Below are positions 2,392 through 10,824 of a DNA stretch of 64,000 nucleotides, one piece after another (positions within the stretch are counted from its first letter, which is position 1; every line of letters starts with the position of its first letter). Below the pieces are notes generated by a model, which made no database searches, was not told the DNA's origin, and saw only the letters and a program-made list of their open reading frames with translations. Both the position numbers and the translations under genes were made by a program. The DNA lies in contig JAOAPC010000011.1 of assembly GCA_025462735.1 (NCBI GenBank), forward strand, positions 248,001 through 312,000, read 5' to 3'. This DNA is from Acidobacteriaceae bacterium. Its GTDB lineage: Bacteria; Acidobacteriota; Terriglobia; Terriglobales; Acidobacteriaceae.

Positions 2392-4671
2392 TTAGGTACG
2401 TGGCGCGCGCCGCTCTTTAATCTCCTGCAAATGCTGTTTCAATCTCTCGACCACAACTTGTCGTTGCGAGTCATTCATCTCCTGCCGCAACTCTTGCAGC
2501 GCGAAATGCACCACATCATGGTGATGCAATTCTTCCGGCGCCACTGAACTGCTGAGTTCCAGCCAGATGGTGTGCAACAGATCAACTTCCTTGGGCGTGA
2601 GATGCGGTGCATGCGGCCCAAGATAAAAGATCTGTTCCTGGCCAGTAGGCGAATAAATGATGAGCGTTAGCTGCGGCTTGGGATCAGCCAGGTGCTCCCA
2701 GGCCAGTCCGGCCATCCGGGCCTCTTCCGCCACCGGCCGGTTCGGCGACACACCGAGCACAACTACTGCCGACTCCAGGCTCTGGGCCGAGCGCAAAATC
2801 GCGTCCCATTTTTCTGTTGCGCCCGCGACCGCAAGATGGATGCTTTTCCCTTTTTTCTCCGCCAGGGACAGCGCGCGGGTAAACAGAGTTTGCTCCTCGG
2901 AGCTGAAAAGCTGTTCTGGTTCGAGTTCGTACTCTCCCGCATCCGAGCGGTTCAGAAAGCGCAAGTGCAGCGTCACCACGTCCTGCTTGTGCGTGTCGAC
3001 CTGGTCGAGGGTTGCGCCGAGGTTATAAAGCGTGTTGTAGTTCCGCACCATCACCAACACATTTCCAGCACGCACGCCCAACGACCGGGGAGTGAGATCA
3101 TCACCCGGCTCAACATTGAACTGATCAAGTTCAGCGTGCTCGGAAGAATGCTTGCGAGTAATCGCCTCCGACACCTCGAAGACAGTAAAGAAAATGAGCG
3201 TGAACGCCAGCCCGGAAATCGTGGCGATCTCTTTCGTGAAAAGATTGATTACGCAAAGCGCGGTTAACGTCAGCGTGATCAGCGCCAAGCCCAGCGGGAT
3301 TTCAACCTTGCCTATGTGGAAGTTCAGCGGAACGCGGTACTCCCGTTTTCCCGGTTCGGTGTAGCGCAGCACCAGCACTGCCAGGCCCTTCATGGAGAAG
3401 CTCCACATCACTCCAAACGCATATGCTTCACCCAGCAGGAAAATGTTTCCTCGGCTCAGAATGATTGTGAGGATCTGAAGTCCTACAACCAGGTCGAGTA
3501 TGCGGTAAGAAGTCCCGAAACGCGGATGCGGTTTTCTGAACCATTGCGGAAGAATCCCATCCTCCGAGACCCGGTTCAGAACTCCATTCGAGCCTACGAT
3601 GGCGGTGTTGACAGCTCCCGCCAGCATCAGCACGCCCACGATCACAACGAAGCCGCGAAATGCCAGCCGCAGCGACACGGGTCCCACCAAATGCATCGCC
3701 AGCCCGCCAATCGGATTGTCCTGGAAGGTTGGGCGCACTGAATCAGGAACGATCATTACCGCGAAGAACGCAACCCCTGCCGTAAAAATCAGGCTGTAAA
3801 TGAAAATGACAATCGCGGCCTTTTTCAGGTTTGGAAGCTTTGGATGTTCAATTTCGCGATAAACCTGCGCCATCGTCTCTTCGCCGCTCATCGCAAGGAC
3901 CGAATGCCCAAGGCCGATCAGGATGCCGATGAGTCCAACGGTGTAGGGCAGGGAACTGTGACGCAACCACCCGAGTGCGCCGCCATGCTCGCCGGTGAGG
4001 TAACAACAGGTCAGGTTCCGAAGGTACGGCCAGGGCGGCAGGTGCGCTCCTTTCACCCAAAGCGTGTAGCAGCACCAGGTCACCAGCACGACCACCATCA
4101 CCGTAGTCACGTACATAATACGTAGCGCTTTTTCGCTTGATTCCGGAATTCCCTTGATGTTCTCCCGCCAGAAGTAGAGCGTCACGATGACGGCGAAAAC
4201 CGCGGCTCCGCCATTCATCGGTATGGACGTGTGCCAGTGCGCGTAGTGAAACAGTTCATTCAGCAAACCCACTAGATACAAGCCTGCCGAAACCCCGCTG
4301 ATCGGGCCAGTCAGAATGTAATCGAACATCAGGGCCGAAACAGAAAACTTGGCCAGCGTGCTGCCCATTGCTTCTTTCACTACGCGGTAAACGCCGCCGC
4401 GCACAAACATTCCGCAGCTCTCGATGTAAAGCGTAGCCACAGCGCCGGCCAGCAGCATGATGGCGAGGATGAACCAAGGCGCAGTCTTTCCCACGAAGTG
4501 TTCGGCAATTGCGCCGGCATAAAATGCCGACGAACCCATGTCATTGAGCACGATGGCAGCCACGCGCCAAAAAGAAATGAACGCCAGCATCGCGCTCGTG
4601 GCGACCAGAACGCGTGCCCCGACGTTAGGCGTCGCCACCTGGGAAGAAGCAGAAGGGTTGGAGGAATTCAT
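2392..4671 (-). CDS. KimA-like APC-superfamily permease, probable K+ importer
   Basis: A 759-residue protein: about 12 membrane helices (residues 20-490) followed by a 250-residue cytosolic domain with a UspA-like alpha/beta pattern (NVLVMVRNYNTLYNLG, then AVVVLGVSPNRP). Features shared with Bacillus KimA include the GGVYRVVKEAMG region, DYILTGPISGVSAG, the SGEET stretch, and NGVLNRVSEDGILP. It was probably once annotated simply as an amino acid permease. The strongest argument for potassium transport is the c-di-AMP riboswitch directly upstream, because KimA (formerly YdaO) gave that riboswitch its name. A paralogue of nearly the same length lies upstream on the same strand. Transport of K+ is inferred; amino acid transport remains possible. 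Confidence 0.8.
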   Translation of the reverse strand: MNSSNPSASSQVATPNVGARVLVATSAMLAFISFWRVAAIVLNDMGSSAFYAGAIAEHFVGKTAPWFILAIMLLAGAVATLYIESCGMFVRGGVYRVVKEAMGSTLAKFSVSALMFDYILTGPISGVSAGLYLVGLLNELFHYAHWHTSIPMNGGAAVFAVIVTLYFWRENIKGIPESSEKALRIMYVTTVMVVVLVTWCCYTLWVKGAHLPPWPYLRNLTCCYLTGEHGGALGWLRHSSLPYTVGLIGILIGLGHSVLAMSGEETMAQVYREIEHPKLPNLKKAAIVIFIYSLIFTAGVAFFAVMIVPDSVRPTFQDNPIGGLAMHLVGPVSLRLAFRGFVVIVGVLMLAGAVNTAIVGSNGVLNRVSEDGILPQWFRKPHPRFGTSYRILDLVVGLQILTIILSRGNIFLLGEAYAFGVMWSFSMKGLAVLVLRYTEPGKREYRVPLNFHIGKVEIPLGLALITLTLTALCVINLFTKEIATISGLAFTLIFFTVFEVSEAITRKHSSEHAELDQFNVEPGDDLTPRSLGVRAGNVLVMVRNYNTLYNLGATLDQVDTHKQDVVTLHLRFLNRSDAGEYELEPEQLFSSEEQTLFTRALSLAEKKGKSIHLAVAGATEKWDAILRSAQSLESAVVVLGVSPNRPVAEEARMAGLAWEHLADPKPQLTLIIYSPTGQEQIFYLGPHAPHLTPKEVDLLHTIWLELSSSVAPEELHHHDVVHFALQELRQEMNDSQRQVVVERLKQHLQEIKERRAPRT

Positions 4672-4704
4672 TGAAGCTTGGTTCAGCCCAAATGGCTGAA
4701 CGCG

Positions 4705-4860
4705 GCTCCTTTCTGCGTCGACGAGGTTAGCTGTCGGGCTCGGACTGAAAGGTGTCCTACCGTGTGCCGGTTGGGCCGGCCTAACGGATTCGCCCCGTCG
4801 GAAATTGCTTTCCGTTGCGGGTCCCCCGTTCCCGCTGAGATGCGGGATTGGACGTCAAAA
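4705..4860 (-). promoter_or_regulatory. c-di-AMP riboswitch (ydaO/yuaA type)
   Basis: Read on the minus strand, the intergenic RNA has the conserved ydaO blocks in order: CGGGGGACCC, GGGGCGAATCCG, GGTAGGACACC, TCCGAGCCCGACAGCTAACC, then GACGCAGAAAGGAG. The segment CCTTTC (about 4764-4769) can pair with GAAAGG (about 4706-4711) as in known structures. That second strand is also the best Shine-Dalgarno-like sequence for the downstream permease, so ligand binding would hide it: an OFF switch. A perfect 8-bp hairpin (GTTCAGCC / GGCTGAAC, 4681-4701) sits between this sequence and the ATG at 4671. If folded, it would bring AAGGAG to about 13 bases from the start. The match is seen; the mechanism is inferred. 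Confidence 0.9.
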
Positions 4861-4931
4861 TGATTCTACTGACGCACTACATACTTCTGCAACACAGGAT
4901 CCAAAGCGGACAGAGAAAAGCACTTGGATGC

Positions 4932-7184
4932 TTAGCTCTCGTCGTCGGACCGCTTCTGGAGTTCCTGCCAGAGTTTGTCCAAAACTTCGGTTTTCTTTTC
5001 GCTGTGCAACTCTTGCTCCAGCTCTTGGAGAGCGACGGCAATAACGTGGTAGTGGTGTGCGCCCGCAAACCGTGGATCGGAAGTCACCTCGAGCCACAGA
5101 TGATGAAGCAGATCGAGATCCTGGTCTCTTAATCGCGGAGTATGGGGGCCAAGATAGTACTCGCGCGAGACCCCGTTTGGCAGCCGGATTTCCATAACTA
5201 GCCGAGGCTTGGGCTCTGGCAGGCGTTCCCAGGCGTCGCCGGTCAGCTTGGCTTGTTCATCGGGGCTTAACTTATTGGAAAGGCCGCACACAATTCGGCT
5301 GGACTCAAGCCGCTGGGCGGTGACGATTATCGAGTCAAACACGTCAGTCGCTGGTACCACCAGCAGCGAGACTGGCCGGCCCTCCTTCTCTGCTGCGGCA
5401 ACCACGGACGTGAACAGTTCTTGCTCATACTGATCGAAAATCTGCTCCGTATCGAAAGTGCTGTTGCCGAACGAGGGCTCGCGGTGAAACAAACGAGCAG
5501 TCATCACCACAACGTCCTGCTGCTTTGTATCCGTTCTTCGCAACACGTCCCGCAAATAGTAGAGGTTCTTGGGATCGCGAACAGCCACCAGAATATTTCC
5601 GGGACGCACGCCTAGCGTTTCCGTGGCTGGCTGCTCGTTTCCATAAACCCGGAATTGGTCGAGGCACTCGAGTTTTCCTGCCCGGTGCTTGGCAACCCGG
5701 CGCTCTGAATAAGTAAATAGAGCAAAGAAAATAAGGCTAAACGTTACGCCACCGATCGTCGCCTCAACTTTTGTAAATAAGTTGACTAGAGCGGTGAGAA
5801 ACAAAACCGTAGCAATGAGTATCACGCCCAGCGGCAGTTCGCGTCCTTGCCCCAGTGGTATGTTTAAGGGCACTTTCCACTCGCGCCTGGTAGGCTCGGT
5901 GTAGCGCAAGATCAGCACCGCAAGCGCCATCATCGAAAAGCTCCAGATAACTCCAAAGGCGTAGAGCCCGGCCAGCGTGAAGACGTTACCTCCGGTGATG
6001 ATGATCGTGAGCAGTTGCAGTCCGACGACCATATTAATAATTCGGTAACTAGTGCCAAAACGCGGATGTGGCTTCTGAAATGCCTCTGTGAGCACGCCGT
6101 CTTCTGCAACCCGGTTGAGCACACCGTTCGCGCCCACGATGGAGGTGTTGTGCGCGCCCGAAAGAATCAGAACTCCCACCAGTGCGACAAAGCCATTGAA
6201 TACCAGTCTCGCCCACAGCGGGCCCCACAGATGCATCGCGATTCCGCCGATGAGATTGCCGAAGTACTCCGGCCTGCGAGCGTCGGGAATGATCATTACC
6301 GCAAAGAAGGAGGTTAGCGCGGTAAATAGAAGAGCGTAGATGCCGATGACTACTGCGGCCTTCTTTAAATTCTTCAGCTTGGGATGCGCAATCTCGCGAT
6401 TGACCTGGGCTAGAGTTTCCTCGCCGCTCATCGCCAGCACAGAGTGGCCGAAACCTACCAGCAGGATGAACAGTGTGAGGTGCGTCATCCAGGTATTCTT
6501 CAGCCCGCTCAACCATCCCAGCGATTCATGATTCAGAGTGATGCCGTACTTCAGCGGACTCGGCGGTAACGGCACCGGAGAATGCCACAAAGTAACCAGG
6601 CACCAGATGATCAGGATCACGACCATGACGGTTGTCACGATCATGATCTGTAGCGCCTTCCCACTGGATTCGTGAATGCCCTGGATATTTTTTCGCCAGA
6701 AATAAAGAGCCACGACGATGGCAAAGGCCGCTGCAAATAAGTTGTCTTGGAAGTGATAGAGAGGATGACCTAAATAGCGCGCAATGTCATGAATGAAGCC
6801 CGCCAGGTACTGCCCTGCGACTACGGAGCTCAAGGGACCAGTGAGAATGTAATCAAACAACAGCGCGGAAACCGAGAATTTTGCCAACTTGCCGCCCATC
6901 GCACGCCTGACCACGCGGTACACTCCACCCCGGACGAACATGCTCGTTGACTCGATGTAAAGCGCGCGCACGCAATTGGCGAACAGCATGACCGCGAGAA
7001 TGAACCACGGAGCGCTTTTTCCAATTACTTTTTCAGCATCGCCGCCTACGTAATAGGCAGAGGAGCCAAGGTCAGAAAGTACGATCGCGGCCGCGCGCCA
7101 GAACGAGATGAAGCTCAGCAGCACGGTGGTGGCTACAAAAACCTTTACTGCTGGTCGGGTTGTGTTTTCGAGAGTTTGGGGCAT
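4932..7184 (-). CDS. KimA-like APC-superfamily permease, second paralogue
   Basis: A 750-residue paralogue of the next gene downstream, with the same plan: about 12 membrane helices then a roughly 250-residue cytosolic UspA-like domain (NILVAVRDPKNLYYLRDVLR). Shared motifs include FRGGVYRVVRRAMG-like, DYILTGPLSSVVAGQ, SGEETLAQVNREIAHPKL and NGVLNRVAEDG. I see no riboswitch before this copy: its start is only about 45 bases from a divergent gene at 7229. The two copies may therefore respond differently, one under c-di-AMP control of expression and one not, though both proteins could bind c-di-AMP directly as KimA does. Potassium transport is inferred from family and context. Confidence 0.78.
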   Translation of the reverse strand: MPQTLENTTRPAVKVFVATTVLLSFISFWRAAAIVLSDLGSSAYYVGGDAEKVIGKSAPWFILAVMLFANCVRALYIESTSMFVRGGVYRVVRRAMGGKLAKFSVSALLFDYILTGPLSSVVAGQYLAGFIHDIARYLGHPLYHFQDNLFAAAFAIVVALYFWRKNIQGIHESSGKALQIMIVTTVMVVILIIWCLVTLWHSPVPLPPSPLKYGITLNHESLGWLSGLKNTWMTHLTLFILLVGFGHSVLAMSGEETLAQVNREIAHPKLKNLKKAAVVIGIYALLFTALTSFFAVMIIPDARRPEYFGNLIGGIAMHLWGPLWARLVFNGFVALVGVLILSGAHNTSIVGANGVLNRVAEDGVLTEAFQKPHPRFGTSYRIINMVVGLQLLTIIITGGNVFTLAGLYAFGVIWSFSMMALAVLILRYTEPTRREWKVPLNIPLGQGRELPLGVILIATVLFLTALVNLFTKVEATIGGVTFSLIFFALFTYSERRVAKHRAGKLECLDQFRVYGNEQPATETLGVRPGNILVAVRDPKNLYYLRDVLRRTDTKQQDVVVMTARLFHREPSFGNSTFDTEQIFDQYEQELFTSVVAAAEKEGRPVSLLVVPATDVFDSIIVTAQRLESSRIVCGLSNKLSPDEQAKLTGDAWERLPEPKPRLVMEIRLPNGVSREYYLGPHTPRLRDQDLDLLHHLWLEVTSDPRFAGAHHYHVIAVALQELEQELHSEKKTEVLDKLWQELQKRSDDES

Positions 7185-7228: not shown

Positions 7229-8854
7229 ATGGATGAAAGCCCCCTAGAAACCGCGCACCCTTGGCTAGACCCGCCAAAGCCCTGCCCAGAGCGCCCCGCC
7301 CGTTATGTCAGGCCGGCGATGATATCTTTGGAAGCAGATAGAATATTCATGGACGTTCTGAAGAAACTTTTCGAGCAGCATTTTCACTCTCCGGTCGACC
7401 GCGTTCAGCCGCTTCAGGGGCAGCTCGGAGGGTCCGGGCGGAACATCATTCGCCTTTCCGACGCCGAACGCAGCGCGATTGGAATCATTTACGGAGTGCG
7501 CGAGGAAAACGTCGCCTTTCTGGAGTTCTCGCGGCATTTCCGCCGTCACGGTTTGCCGGTACCCGAAATTTACGCTGAGGATTTAAAGCACGACGCATAC
7601 CTCGAGCAGGACCTCGGCGATGTTACGCTCTTCGATTTCCTCTCGAAAAATCACAGCGGTGAAAACATTGCTCCCGCCGTCATCGAAGCCTATCGCAAGG
7701 TCCTCGAAATCCTGCCGCGATTTCAAATCGAAGCTGGTCGCGATCTGAATTACAAAGTTTGTTATCCTCGCGCCAGCTTCGATCGGCAGTCCATCATCTG
7801 GGACCTGAATTACTTCAAATATTATTTTCTTCGGCTCGCCGGCATTCCGTTTAACGAACAGGCGCTGGAGCAGGATTTCAGCCGCCTGACCAAGTTCCTG
7901 CTGACAGCCGATCACGATTACTTTCTTTACCGGGACTTCCAGTCACGCAATGTCATGCTGCGCAATGGCGAGGCGTTCTTTGTGGATTATCAGGGAGGCC
8001 GCAGAGGCGCGCTGCAATACGACGTCGCTTCGCTTTTGTACGATGCCAAAGCCGATCTGCCTCCAGCTTTGCGTCAGCACCTGCTCGATCATTATCTGGA
8101 AACGCTCCGCAATTACGTTCCGACAAAGAGCGAAGTGTTCATGCAGCACTATTACGCCTTTGTTTATGTGCGCCTCATGCAGGCATTTGGCGCATACGGA
8201 TTTCGTGGCTTCTACGAGCGCAAAGCTCATTTCCTGCAGAGCGTTCCTTATGCGCTGAAAAATCTGCGCTGGCTGTTGCACAACGTTGTGCTGCCGATCG
8301 AACTTCCGACGCTCATGGAATCTTTCCGCGGCATGTTGGCCTCCGAGAAGCTGCTGAACTTACATTTTGAAGAGGCAAGAGGAGGGCTGTCCAAAACTGC
8401 TTCTGACTCCTCCCTCTCAGTCCGCATATACAGTTTTTCTTTTCACCGCGGCGGCGTGCCGAAGGATGAGACCGGAAACGGCGGCGGCTTCGTCTTTGAC
8501 GGCCGCGGTATACCCAATCCCGGACGTGAAGAGCGTTTCAAGAATCTCACCGGAAAAGATAAGCCGGTAATTGAATATTTAGATCAGCAGGAAAGCGCTC
8601 AACAGTTTCTCGATCATGTTCGCTCGCTAATCGATGCCAGCGTTGGCGAGTACCAGCGCCGCGGCTTTAAGCATCTGATGGTTTCCTTCGGCTGTACCGG
8701 TGGCCAGCACCGCTCCGTATATTTGGCCGAGCAGCTTGCGAAGCATCTGCGTGAAAAGAATGGCATCGAAGTGACCGTTCACCATCGTGAGCTGGAGAAA
8801 GCCGACGCTGAGTTGGAGACGGGTGCCGCCCAGGCGGGGACGGCGGCAGAATGA
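7229..8854 (+). CDS. AmgK-like sugar kinase fused to RapZ C-terminal domain
   Basis: A 541-residue two-domain protein. Residues about 40-370 are an aminoglycoside-phosphotransferase fold of the AmgK type (N-acetylmuramate/N-acetylglucosamine kinase): the catalytic loop YRDFQSRNVML and the metal aspartate in FVDYQGGRRG are present. Residues about 397-525 match the C-terminal domain of RapZ (FVFDGRGIPNPG, LTGKDKPVIEYL, SFGCTGGQHRSVYLAE), the part that senses glucosamine-6-phosphate in E. coli. The RapZ N-terminal P-loop ATPase is absent. The stop overlaps the next start (ATGA), so it is translationally coupled to a MurU-like gene. Start is uncertain: ATGs at 7319 and 7349 are alternatives, as the first 30 residues are proline-rich and unlike the family. 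Confidence 0.85.
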   Translation: MDESPLETAHPWLDPPKPCPERPARYVRPAMISLEADRIFMDVLKKLFEQHFHSPVDRVQPLQGQLGGSGRNIIRLSDAERSAIGIIYGVREENVAFLEFSRHFRRHGLPVPEIYAEDLKHDAYLEQDLGDVTLFDFLSKNHSGENIAPAVIEAYRKVLEILPRFQIEAGRDLNYKVCYPRASFDRQSIIWDLNYFKYYFLRLAGIPFNEQALEQDFSRLTKFLLTADHDYFLYRDFQSRNVMLRNGEAFFVDYQGGRRGALQYDVASLLYDAKADLPPALRQHLLDHYLETLRNYVPTKSEVFMQHYYAFVYVRLMQAFGAYGFRGFYERKAHFLQSVPYALKNLRWLLHNVVLPIELPTLMESFRGMLASEKLLNLHFEEARGGLSKTASDSSLSVRIYSFSFHRGGVPKDETGNGGGFVFDGRGIPNPGREERFKNLTGKDKPVIEYLDQQESAQQFLDHVRSLIDASVGEYQRRGFKHLMVSFGCTGGQHRSVYLAEQLAKHLREKNGIEVTVHHRELEKADAELETGAAQAGTAAE

Positions 8855-9609
8855 AGGCCATGGTCCTGGCTGCCGGCCTAGGCACGCGCTTGCGGCCGCT
8901 CACTAACCACCGCCCCAAAGCGCTGGTCGAAGTCGGAGGCCGAACTCTTCTCGAGATCACGCTAACTCGGCTGCGCGATTTCGGAGTTCGCGAAGTGATC
9001 ATTAACGTACATCACTTCGCCGATATGATCGAAGCCTACCTGAAAGCCAACAACAACTTTGACCTGCAAATTGAAATTTCTCGCGAAGAGGCCTTGTTAA
9101 ATACCGGCGGCGGACTCAAGAAAGCCGGCCATTTTTTTGGTGACAATTCGAAGAGGAAAGATTCGGGAAGGGAAGAGCCGTTCATCCTGCACAATGTCGA
9201 CGTCATCAGCAATATCGATTTCGCGCAGATGTTGAAGTTTCATACCGAAAAGAACGCGCTCGCAACCCTGGCCGTGCAAGACCGCGAAACTTCTCGCTAT
9301 TTGCTGTTCGATGATTCGCTCCAACTCAGTGGCCGGCAAACGGGAGGGAATGGCAAGCCAGAACTCGTTCGACCGACGCAAACCCAGCAACGTTTAGCAT
9401 TCTCCGGCATTCACGTCATCTCTCCCCGTTTTCTTGCCATGATGACCGAGCAGGACGCTTTCTCGATCATTGACAGCTATCTTCGACTTGCAGGTCAGGG
9501 AGAGAAAATTCTCGCCTTTCGCGCCGACAAATATTACTGGCGTGATCTCGGCAGACCGGAACACGTGGAGCAAGCTGCCAAAGATATTGCGCGGGGCGTT
9601 CTGCAGTAA
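8851..9609 (+). CDS. murU: MurU-like nucleotidyltransferase
   Basis: A 252-residue sugar-1-phosphate nucleotidyltransferase. The N-terminal signature VLAAGLGTRLRPLT...PKALVEVGG holds the nucleotide-binding loop and catalytic lysine; HNVDVISNID is the metal-binding region. Length fits MurU (about 220-250) rather than longer GlmU or GalU. In Pseudomonas, AmgK phosphorylates recycled N-acetylmuramic acid at C1 and MurU makes UDP-MurNAc, bypassing the early Mur pathway and fosfomycin. The four-base overlap with an AmgK-like gene makes this the best reading. Mannose-1-phosphate guanylyltransferase is the main alternative from sequence alone. Confidence 0.8.
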   Translation: MKAMVLAAGLGTRLRPLTNHRPKALVEVGGRTLLEITLTRLRDFGVREVIINVHHFADMIEAYLKANNNFDLQIEISREEALLNTGGGLKKAGHFFGDNSKRKDSGREEPFILHNVDVISNIDFAQMLKFHTEKNALATLAVQDRETSRYLLFDDSLQLSGRQTGGNGKPELVRPTQTQQRLAFSGIHVISPRFLAMMTEQDAFSIIDSYLRLAGQGEKILAFRADKYYWRDLGRPEHVEQAAKDIARGVLQ

Positions 9610-9637: not shown

Positions 9638-10174
9638 TTAGCTGAGGTATTTCTTCATGCACCGCACGCACGGAACGTACCCTTCGCGCAGCGCTTCACG
9701 TGCTGCAACCGTCTTCAAGTGTGCCCTGTCGAGGATGTACTCGCATCCCAACACATGGAATGTCTTTCCGTCGGGATAGACCCACACCATCATGTCCGGA
9801 GGCACTCCCCTCCCGGGTTGCGCATGTTCGGAGCGCAATTGAGTACGTCCAAAGCCCGAAGACCTCGCAGCCTCGAAGCTGCCGGCCACCAGGACTGCCG
9901 CCGCGGCAGCCACCATCCATCCAAAGAAAGTCCTTCTGCTCGGGTGCGCATTTTCGCCAAGCCTGCGCTGCAAGCGGTATCCGAATCCGAGCGGAGCCTC
10001 AACCATGCGCTCGTCTCCATACAACTGAACTACATTGCGCATTCCTTCGAGGACCGAGGTGCAGCGCTTGCATCCGCGAAAGTGCTCGTCCATGGCAGCG
10101 CGCCGCCCGGCATCTACTTCGCCGTCGAGATAATTTGAAAGTTCGCGCCACACCTCGTCGCAATTGACTACCAT
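9638..10174 (-). CDS. Zinc-finger anti-sigma factor with C-terminal Cys/His domain
   Basis: A 178-residue membrane protein. The N-terminus has a ZAS-type zinc site: Cys5, His31, Cys35, Cys38 (HFRGCKRC). A membrane helix follows at about residues 83-100. The periplasmic part ends in FHVLGCEYI...GYVPCVRC, a small Cys/His module like the metal-binding domain seen at the end of some secreted nucleases and in Ada. It overlaps the sigma factor gene by 7 bases (ATGGTAG), the usual arrangement for a cognate pair. The two Cys clusters suggest a redox- or metal-sensing input, which is inference. Confidence 0.85.
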   Translation of the reverse strand: MVVNCDEVWRELSNYLDGEVDAGRRAAMDEHFRGCKRCTSVLEGMRNVVQLYGDERMVEAPLGFGYRLQRRLGENAHPSRRTFFGWMVAAAAAVLVAGSFEAARSSGFGRTQLRSEHAQPGRGVPPDMMVWVYPDGKTFHVLGCEYILDRAHLKTVAAREALREGYVPCVRCMKKYLS

Positions 10175-10824
10175 GGTTTCGCCCCCTTCTCGAAGGACAG
10201 CCTGCTCATCCAGGGCCCGCCCAGCCCCGGCGCCAGCAGGTCGCGCAACATCAGTCGTGCCCGCAGCAGGCGTGTCTTCACCGACGCGGTTGAAATCCCC
10301 AGCGCTGCGGCAGTCTCTTCGATACTCAAGTGCTGCATATCACGCAATACAAATACGTCACGATAAATGTCGCCTAAAGACGCCAGCGCCTCCGCCAGCT
10401 TTTCGCGGATTTCCTTCCGCTCCAGCGTCTCCGAAGGAATCTCTCGCCAGTCGGCAAAGTCACGCGGCGTGTAGTTGCCGGACTCATCCTGCCGGTCTGC
10501 AATTGGCTCTATTAGCTCCGCATGATCTTTTCTTCTGCGCATGCGCGCCTCATTCACCGCGATCTGGATCAGCCATGTGCTGAACCGCGCTTCCTCGCGA
10601 AATTGCCGAATGTGCTTGAAAGCCTTCAGCATTGCCTCTTGAGCAGCGTCTTCGGCATCGGCTGCATTCCTCAAAATCGCAAACGCCGCCGCATATACCC
10701 GCCGTTCGTAAGGCCGGATCAGCTGGTAAAAAAGATCGCCTTCGCCGTCTCGCACGCGCCGGATCAGCTCTACCTCGCTCGATTGTTGCGCTGGATGCCC
10801 CAGCGAAGGTGCTGATTCTGGCAT
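10168..10824 (-). CDS. ECF-family RNA polymerase sigma factor
   Basis: A 218-residue sigma-70 family protein with regions 2 and 4 only. Region 2 spans about residues 28-95 (YAAAFAILRNAADAEDAAQEAMLKAFKHIRQF, here cited by its key DAEDAAQE core, and FSTWLIQIAVNEA). Region 4 spans about 150-205, with the helix-turn-helix LSIEETAAALGISTASVKTR. It lies 34 bases after the cytochrome b gene and overlaps its anti-sigma gene, so the four minus-strand genes from 12303 to 9638 may be one operon. That would link the regulator to periplasmic redox chemistry. Function of the family is certain, regulon unknown. Confidence 0.92.
   Translation of the reverse strand: MPESAPSLGHPAQQSSEVELIRRVRDGEGDLFYQLIRPYERRVYAAAFAILRNAADAEDAAQEAMLKAFKHIRQFREEARFSTWLIQIAVNEARMRRRKDHAELIEPIADRQDESGNYTPRDFADWREIPSETLERKEIREKLAEALASLGDIYRDVFVLRDMQHLSIEETAAALGISTASVKTRLLRARLMLRDLLAPGLGGPWMSRLSFEKGAKPW

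Follow-up and report, generated by a model that had tools for sequence, protein, structure and literature searches.

The window, meaning the whole stretch of 64,000 nucleotides analysed here, carries a two-gene unit in which an AmgK-like kinase fused to the C-terminal domain of RapZ is followed by a gene for a MurU-like nucleotidyltransferase (Table 1). Divergent to the fusion are two tandem amino-acid permease genes (2392-7184, minus strand), whose products of ~750 aa have long extensions at the C-terminus, and a pair of genes encoding an ECF sigma factor and a zinc-finger anti-sigma-like protein converges on the MurU-like gene (9638-10824, minus strand). Pfam searches placed the APH family (PF01636, residues 93-293, E=1.9e-11) and the RapZ C-terminal domain (PF22740, E=2.1e-36) on the same open reading frame, and the N-terminal P-loop domain of RapZ (PF03668) was absent from the 541-aa protein; likewise, the NCBIfam RapZ match was confined to the C-terminal part of RapZ. 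Since relatives align only from residue ~35-41, the real coding sequence probably starts at ATG 7349 rather than at 7229, and would span 7349-8854 (501 aa). A canonical full-length RapZ is encoded in one copy on another contig of the same genome, indicating that the fusion is an addition and not a replacement. The first-pass annotation had described an AmgK-like kinase joined to a RapZ domain, devoid of the ATPase half of RapZ and coupled to a MurU-like gene, and this description is borne out in all three respects.

Table 1. Features of the fusion gene and of its MurU-like partner in the window.
Feature	Position	Strand	Basis
Fusion gene, AmgK-like kinase + RapZ C-terminal domain	7229..8854	+	Longest ORF, 541 aa
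APH-fold AmgK-like kinase domain, residues 41-380	7349..8368	+	PF01636, NCBIfam, 3csv, AmgK homologue alignment
Catalytic loop Y-R-D-F-Q-S-R-N (D236, N241)	7928..7951	+	RD[FY]Q.RN in 112/112 fusions
Metal-binding DYQGG motif (D253)	7985..7999	+	D[FY]Q common to AmgK homologues and 3csv
Flexible interdomain linker	8375..8404	+	pLDDT < 50, model residues 343-352
RapZ C-terminal (phosphosugar-binding) domain, residues 397-523	8417..8797	+	PF22740; 5o5s
Gly-rich loop DETGNGGG (G[NH]GGG), fusion-specific insertion	8465..8488	+	112/112 fusions
NPGR, RapZ His190 position = Gly432, then Arg433	8516..8527	+	Alignment
Phosphate-binding loop GCTGGQHRS (= E. coli RapZ 246-254; incl. C489, H494, R495)	8690..8716	+	CTGG[QR]HRS, 112/112
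MurU-like nucleotidyltransferase	8851..9609	+	NF045761 best family; PF00483

AmgK was the best kinase name given to the fusion by NCBIfam, with scores of 47.4 and 42.6 bits against equivalog cut-offs of 500 and 550 bits, respectively. An AlphaFold2 model built from a 63-sequence alignment (mean pLDDT 92, pTM 0.73) is to be read domain by domain, as the relative placement of its two domains is not to be trusted. The best match of the kinase part was 3csv (Z 28.8, 2.8 Å over 309 residues), and the protein displays an APH fold equipped with the catalytic Asp and the metal-binding Asn and Asp. Its catalytic loop aligns with the RD[FY]H..N loop of AmgK homologues. With the AmgK of Pseudomonas/Caulobacter/Legionella-type recycling it has in common the APH fold, the RD[FY]xxxN and D[FY]Q motifs and a murU gene placed after it; by contrast, the AmgK-type sequences compared carry no RapZ domain. 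Joining of an AmgK-type kinase to a second domain upstream of a MurU-like gene is also seen in Alphaproteobacteria (L159), but there the partner is TsaE and is N-terminal, whereas here it is the C-terminal domain of RapZ.

A separate model of the C-terminal part (pLDDT 94) had its best match in the C-terminal domain of E. coli RapZ (5o5s; Z 19.2, 1.5 Å over 123 residues, 40% identity). In E. coli RapZ, H190, T248, G249, H252 and R253 form a sulphate/malonate pocket (PMC5737377) that is thought, by tentative assignment, to be the GlcN6P site (PMC9841335), and the C-terminal domain binds GlcN6P with a KD of about 10 nM (PMC7073468). The first-pass annotation had let its GlcN6P-sensor proposal hinge on such pocket residues. 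T248, G249, H252 and R253 are invariant in the fusions, but the position of H190 is occupied by Gly, followed by Arg or Lys, in 112 of 112, where canonical RapZ has His, Tyr or Phe. In addition, the inserted Gly-rich loop was found in none of 20 canonical acidobacterial RapZ sequences. The H190A substitution inactivates E. coli RapZ in vivo, in an assay that reads RNA processing and not GlcN6P binding (PMC9841335). The basic tail through which RapZ binds RNA is an enterobacterial feature (PMC7073468), and in most fusions the columns of K270 and R282 are not basic while K281 is partly kept, K283 falling outside the reference used. Thus, the fusion shares with RapZ/YvcJ the C-terminal fold and the phosphate loop, but differs from them by the lack of the N-terminal P-loop domain, the His190-to-Gly exchange, the Gly-rich insertion and the lack of conservation of K270 and R282. 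Another position, D444 in a TG-x-D motif (8558-8560), is invariant in the fusions and corresponds to a D/H/S site in canonical RapZ, making it a candidate ligand-binding or catalytic residue.

Since the phosphate loop is intact while H190 is lost and a loop is inserted, phosphate binding is likely kept and specificity likely changed, and the ligand is probably a sugar phosphate related to that of RapZ. Ligands do vary within the family, as the RapZ homologue YvcJ binds UDP-GlcNAc (PMC7525490). Hence, the claim that the domain senses GlcN6P is not supported as originally worded, for the ligand may differ; we consider that it is most likely a sugar-phosphate-binding regulatory domain, a GlcN6P sensor being one option.

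The start of the MurU-like gene overlaps the stop of the fusion gene by 4 bp, in the form ATGA. Its product scored 137.2 bits with the MurU family NF045761, its best NCBIfam family, for an equivalog cut-off of 250 bits, and MurU entries were among its best PDB matches. Among the 77 fusion loci with enough downstream sequence, 74 have a MurU-like gene starting at most 400 nt downstream, most commonly with the same ATGA overlap, and three fusions (L137, L144, L146) have none directly downstream. The MurU-like gene is the only widely conserved neighbour of the fusion; a search for a second one among the fusion loci returned no widespread candidate. An AmgK-MurU-like pair in Legionella adelaidensis (L157) has the same gene order and 4-bp overlap.

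The survey of domain fusions that the first-pass annotation had proposed as a check yielded 112 unique fusions of the same architecture, from Acidobacteriota, Bacteroidota, Elusimicrobiota, Calditrichota and Neomarinimicrobiota. Such recurrence excludes a chance arrangement, and the fusion, widespread in Bacteroidota, is no local oddity. It occurs in about 60 of 150 sampled genomes of the window's own family (58-79% identity), and a plasmid search turned up copies in Parabacteroides, Bacteroides, Phocaeicola and Prevotella that align over 84-89% of the protein at 40-44% identity. When the kinase part was used to scan GTDB genomes, at least 508 relatives were returned; the best 80 cover the same five phyla, and 78 of them have the full fusion. 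The range of phyla suggests that, outside Proteobacteria, AmgK commonly takes this fused form. We conclude that it is a real AmgK variant bearing a RapZ-type domain, conserved in multiple phyla and coupled to MurU, the two-gene module being present in at least five bacterial phyla. In trees built for each domain, the fusions formed one group, with a support of 0.85 for its separation from canonical RapZ and of 0.97 for that from the two proteobacterial AmgK-type sequences, a topology that fits a single old fusion event. The N-terminal domain of RapZ is present in the acidobacterial and elusimicrobial carriers tested, and was not found in the sequence searched for the tested carriers of Bacteroidota, Calditrichota and Neomarinimicrobiota. 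Two apparent variants were discarded: an apparently natural split, with the halves on different contigs (G270), is an assembly break, both halves lying at contig ends, and RapZ_C frames of 598-671 aa from other Acidobacteriota were rejected as fusions, the extra length in the two that were read being an apparently unrelated frame in front of a canonical RapZ.

Where the pair sits points to the sugar that it handles. In the window's genome, genes for a serine hydrolase of the beta-lactamase family (PF00144), murQ and murA stand in a row (G000:C16:50165-53560; L168 2166-5561), and many genomes of the family have murQ and murA side by side. In a relative (G225:C8:1-9000; L167), the order is serine hydrolase, fusion, murU and murA, with flanking genes 62% (serine hydrolase) and 84% (murA) identical to those of the window's genome; the pair occupies the place of murQ, and this genome has anmK and no murQ above the family cut-off. 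Such a swap at a single locus, with a kinase and a uridylyltransferase standing in for the MurNAc-6P etherase MurQ, is expected if the two routes are alternative exits from one and the same sugar. In two further loci (G320 and L076), the pair adjoins murQ. Across the family, murQ above the cut-off was missing from 6 of 40 carriers and 1 of 40 non-carriers, a difference that is not significant (p=0.11), and the sole non-carrier without murQ also has no MurA match. At least two murQ copies were found in 2 of 40 carriers versus 17 of 40 non-carriers (p=1e-4, a statistic that ignores phylogeny). A link between the fusion and AnmK was considered and set aside as uninformative, anmK being present in 80 of 80 family genomes.

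A second line of evidence comes from Tannerella forsythia, which depends on external MurNAc, imports it in free form and is reported to lack murA, murB, glmS and glmU (PMC5790795). In the genome of strain ATCC 43037, no MurA match was found, the fusion is the sole AmgK-like match at E<=1 and the gene adjoining it is the best MurU match. When 'T. forsythia AmgK and MurU' are expressed in E. coli, the cells incorporate MurNAc probes (PMC13041923). By elimination, the 'AmgK' of MurNAc salvage in T. forsythia would be the RapZ-domain fusion; the literature we found treats it as an AmgK and does not mention a RapZ domain. Two other fusion carriers, from Neomarinimicrobiota (G338; L120) and Calditrichia (G340; L143), gave only weak MurA matches, which are perhaps AroA; these organisms may depend on the salvage route through the fusion, or their assemblies may be incomplete.

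Because both proteins score far short of the equivalog cut-offs for AmgK and MurU, we infer the substrate from context. The first-pass proposal of a tie to cell-wall recycling is upheld on three grounds: adjacency to MurU, T. forsythia, and the pair's position in place of murQ or beside it. Genomics gives good support to a MurNAc-salvage kinase feeding MurU, and the kinase very probably phosphorylates MurNAc, recycling this cell-wall sugar. More broadly, we think it reasonably likely that the fusion and MurU constitute a two-gene MurNAc-salvage module, the C-terminal domain of which binds a metabolite and tunes the kinase. AnhydroMurNAc would be converted into MurNAc by AnmK, which the genome encodes, and a putative MurNAc-6-phosphate phosphatase; the N-terminal APH-fold domain would phosphorylate C1 of MurNAc and perhaps of GlcNAc as well; and the MurU-like enzyme, whose translation is coupled to that of the fusion and which is presumed to use MurNAc-1-phosphate, would convert the latter into UDP-MurNAc, bypassing MurA/MurB. 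The C-terminal domain would most likely bind an amino-sugar phosphate of the branch point, namely MurNAc-6P, GlcNAc-6P or GlcN6P, and ligand binding would tune the kinase, keeping salvage in step with the MurQ/GlcN6P route. In this scheme, the substrate of the kinase, the ligand of the domain and the direction of regulation are given as we infer them.

Several other readings were weighed against this module. The C-terminal domain might bind GlcN6P exactly as RapZ does and feed back on the kinase. The nanomolar affinity of the E. coli domain and the conservation of four of the five pocket residues speak for such feedback, but the exchange of His190, a residue that RapZ needs in vivo, in every fusion and the Gly-rich insertion speak against it, and T. 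forsythia, reported to lack glmS (PMC5790795), keeps the domain intact. Transferring the GlcN6P property from RapZ by analogy is therefore tentative at best, and we hold this version of the feedback to be rather doubtful. A purely structural part, in dimerisation of the kinase or in docking of MurU for channelling, with no metabolite involved, would agree with the dimerisation of the E. coli RapZ C-terminal domain on its own (PMC5737377) and with the coupling to a MurU-like gene at 74 of 77 loci; it is nevertheless improbable, as residues of the phosphate loop that are invariant over five phyla predict ligand binding. The kinase, for its part, might act mainly on another sugar, such as GlcNAc en route to UDP-GlcNAc or a mannose-type sugar, with a nucleotidyltransferase to match. 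The scores under the AmgK and MurU cut-offs leave room for this, as do the diversity of APH-fold kinases, which include anomeric GlcNAc kinases, and the annotation of AmgK for both MurNAc and GlcNAc. Yet the pair lies in place of murQ or beside it, and the fusion is the sole AmgK-like gene of the MurNAc-dependent, murA-less T. forsythia, so that a different main substrate appears quite unlikely.

C-x5-R-[ST] is the pattern of Cys-dependent phosphatases, and the phosphate loop of the fusions (CTGG[QR]HRS) fits it; in the predicted secondary structure, its Cys ends a strand and its Arg begins a helix. The RapZ-type domain could then be a Cys-dependent sugar-phosphate enzyme acting before the C1 kinase, for instance by converting MurNAc-6P into MurNAc, the job of MupP. 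The loop Cys, equivalent to Cys247 of E. coli RapZ, is invariant in 112 of 112 fusions; in E. coli, the C247S variant is inactive, and the authors of that work propose that the -SH group is catalytic and report that, with GlcN6P present, they saw density for a product that had been chemically transformed (PMC9841335). Moreover, carriers with anmK but without murQ need a MurNAc-6P step of this kind. On the other hand, the structural matches listed for the domain include no C-x5-R phosphatase and show a weak likeness to phosphofructokinase, no catalytic activity is known for the domain, HAD phosphatases of the MupP type could perform the step, and T. forsythia imports free MurNAc (PMC5790795). 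The odds thus appear to be well against a catalytic domain; if it were one, a single bifunctional protein and MurU would replace MurQ, and the same chemistry would explain why E. coli RapZ requires C247.

In the fusion, a RapZ-type sugar-phosphate domain is used on an enzyme instead of an RNA adapter, in phyla to which abundant bacteria of gut and soil belong. The salvage of MurNAc, our favoured reading, also has a bearing on tolerance to fosfomycin. Our literature search found no paper mentioning both RapZ and AmgK, and no published test of what the RapZ-like domain of the fusion senses or does. Being free of the sRNA and two-component complications, the fusion offers a simple system in which to study the ligand, or the reaction, of the RapZ C-terminal domain. 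Finally, the fusion is frequently mislabelled as RapZ: the two annotated fusions from the plasmid search (L063 and L064) bear the public name 'RNase adapter RapZ', a label that can now be corrected for Bacteroidota carriers, whose protein is devoid of the RapZ N-terminal domain.
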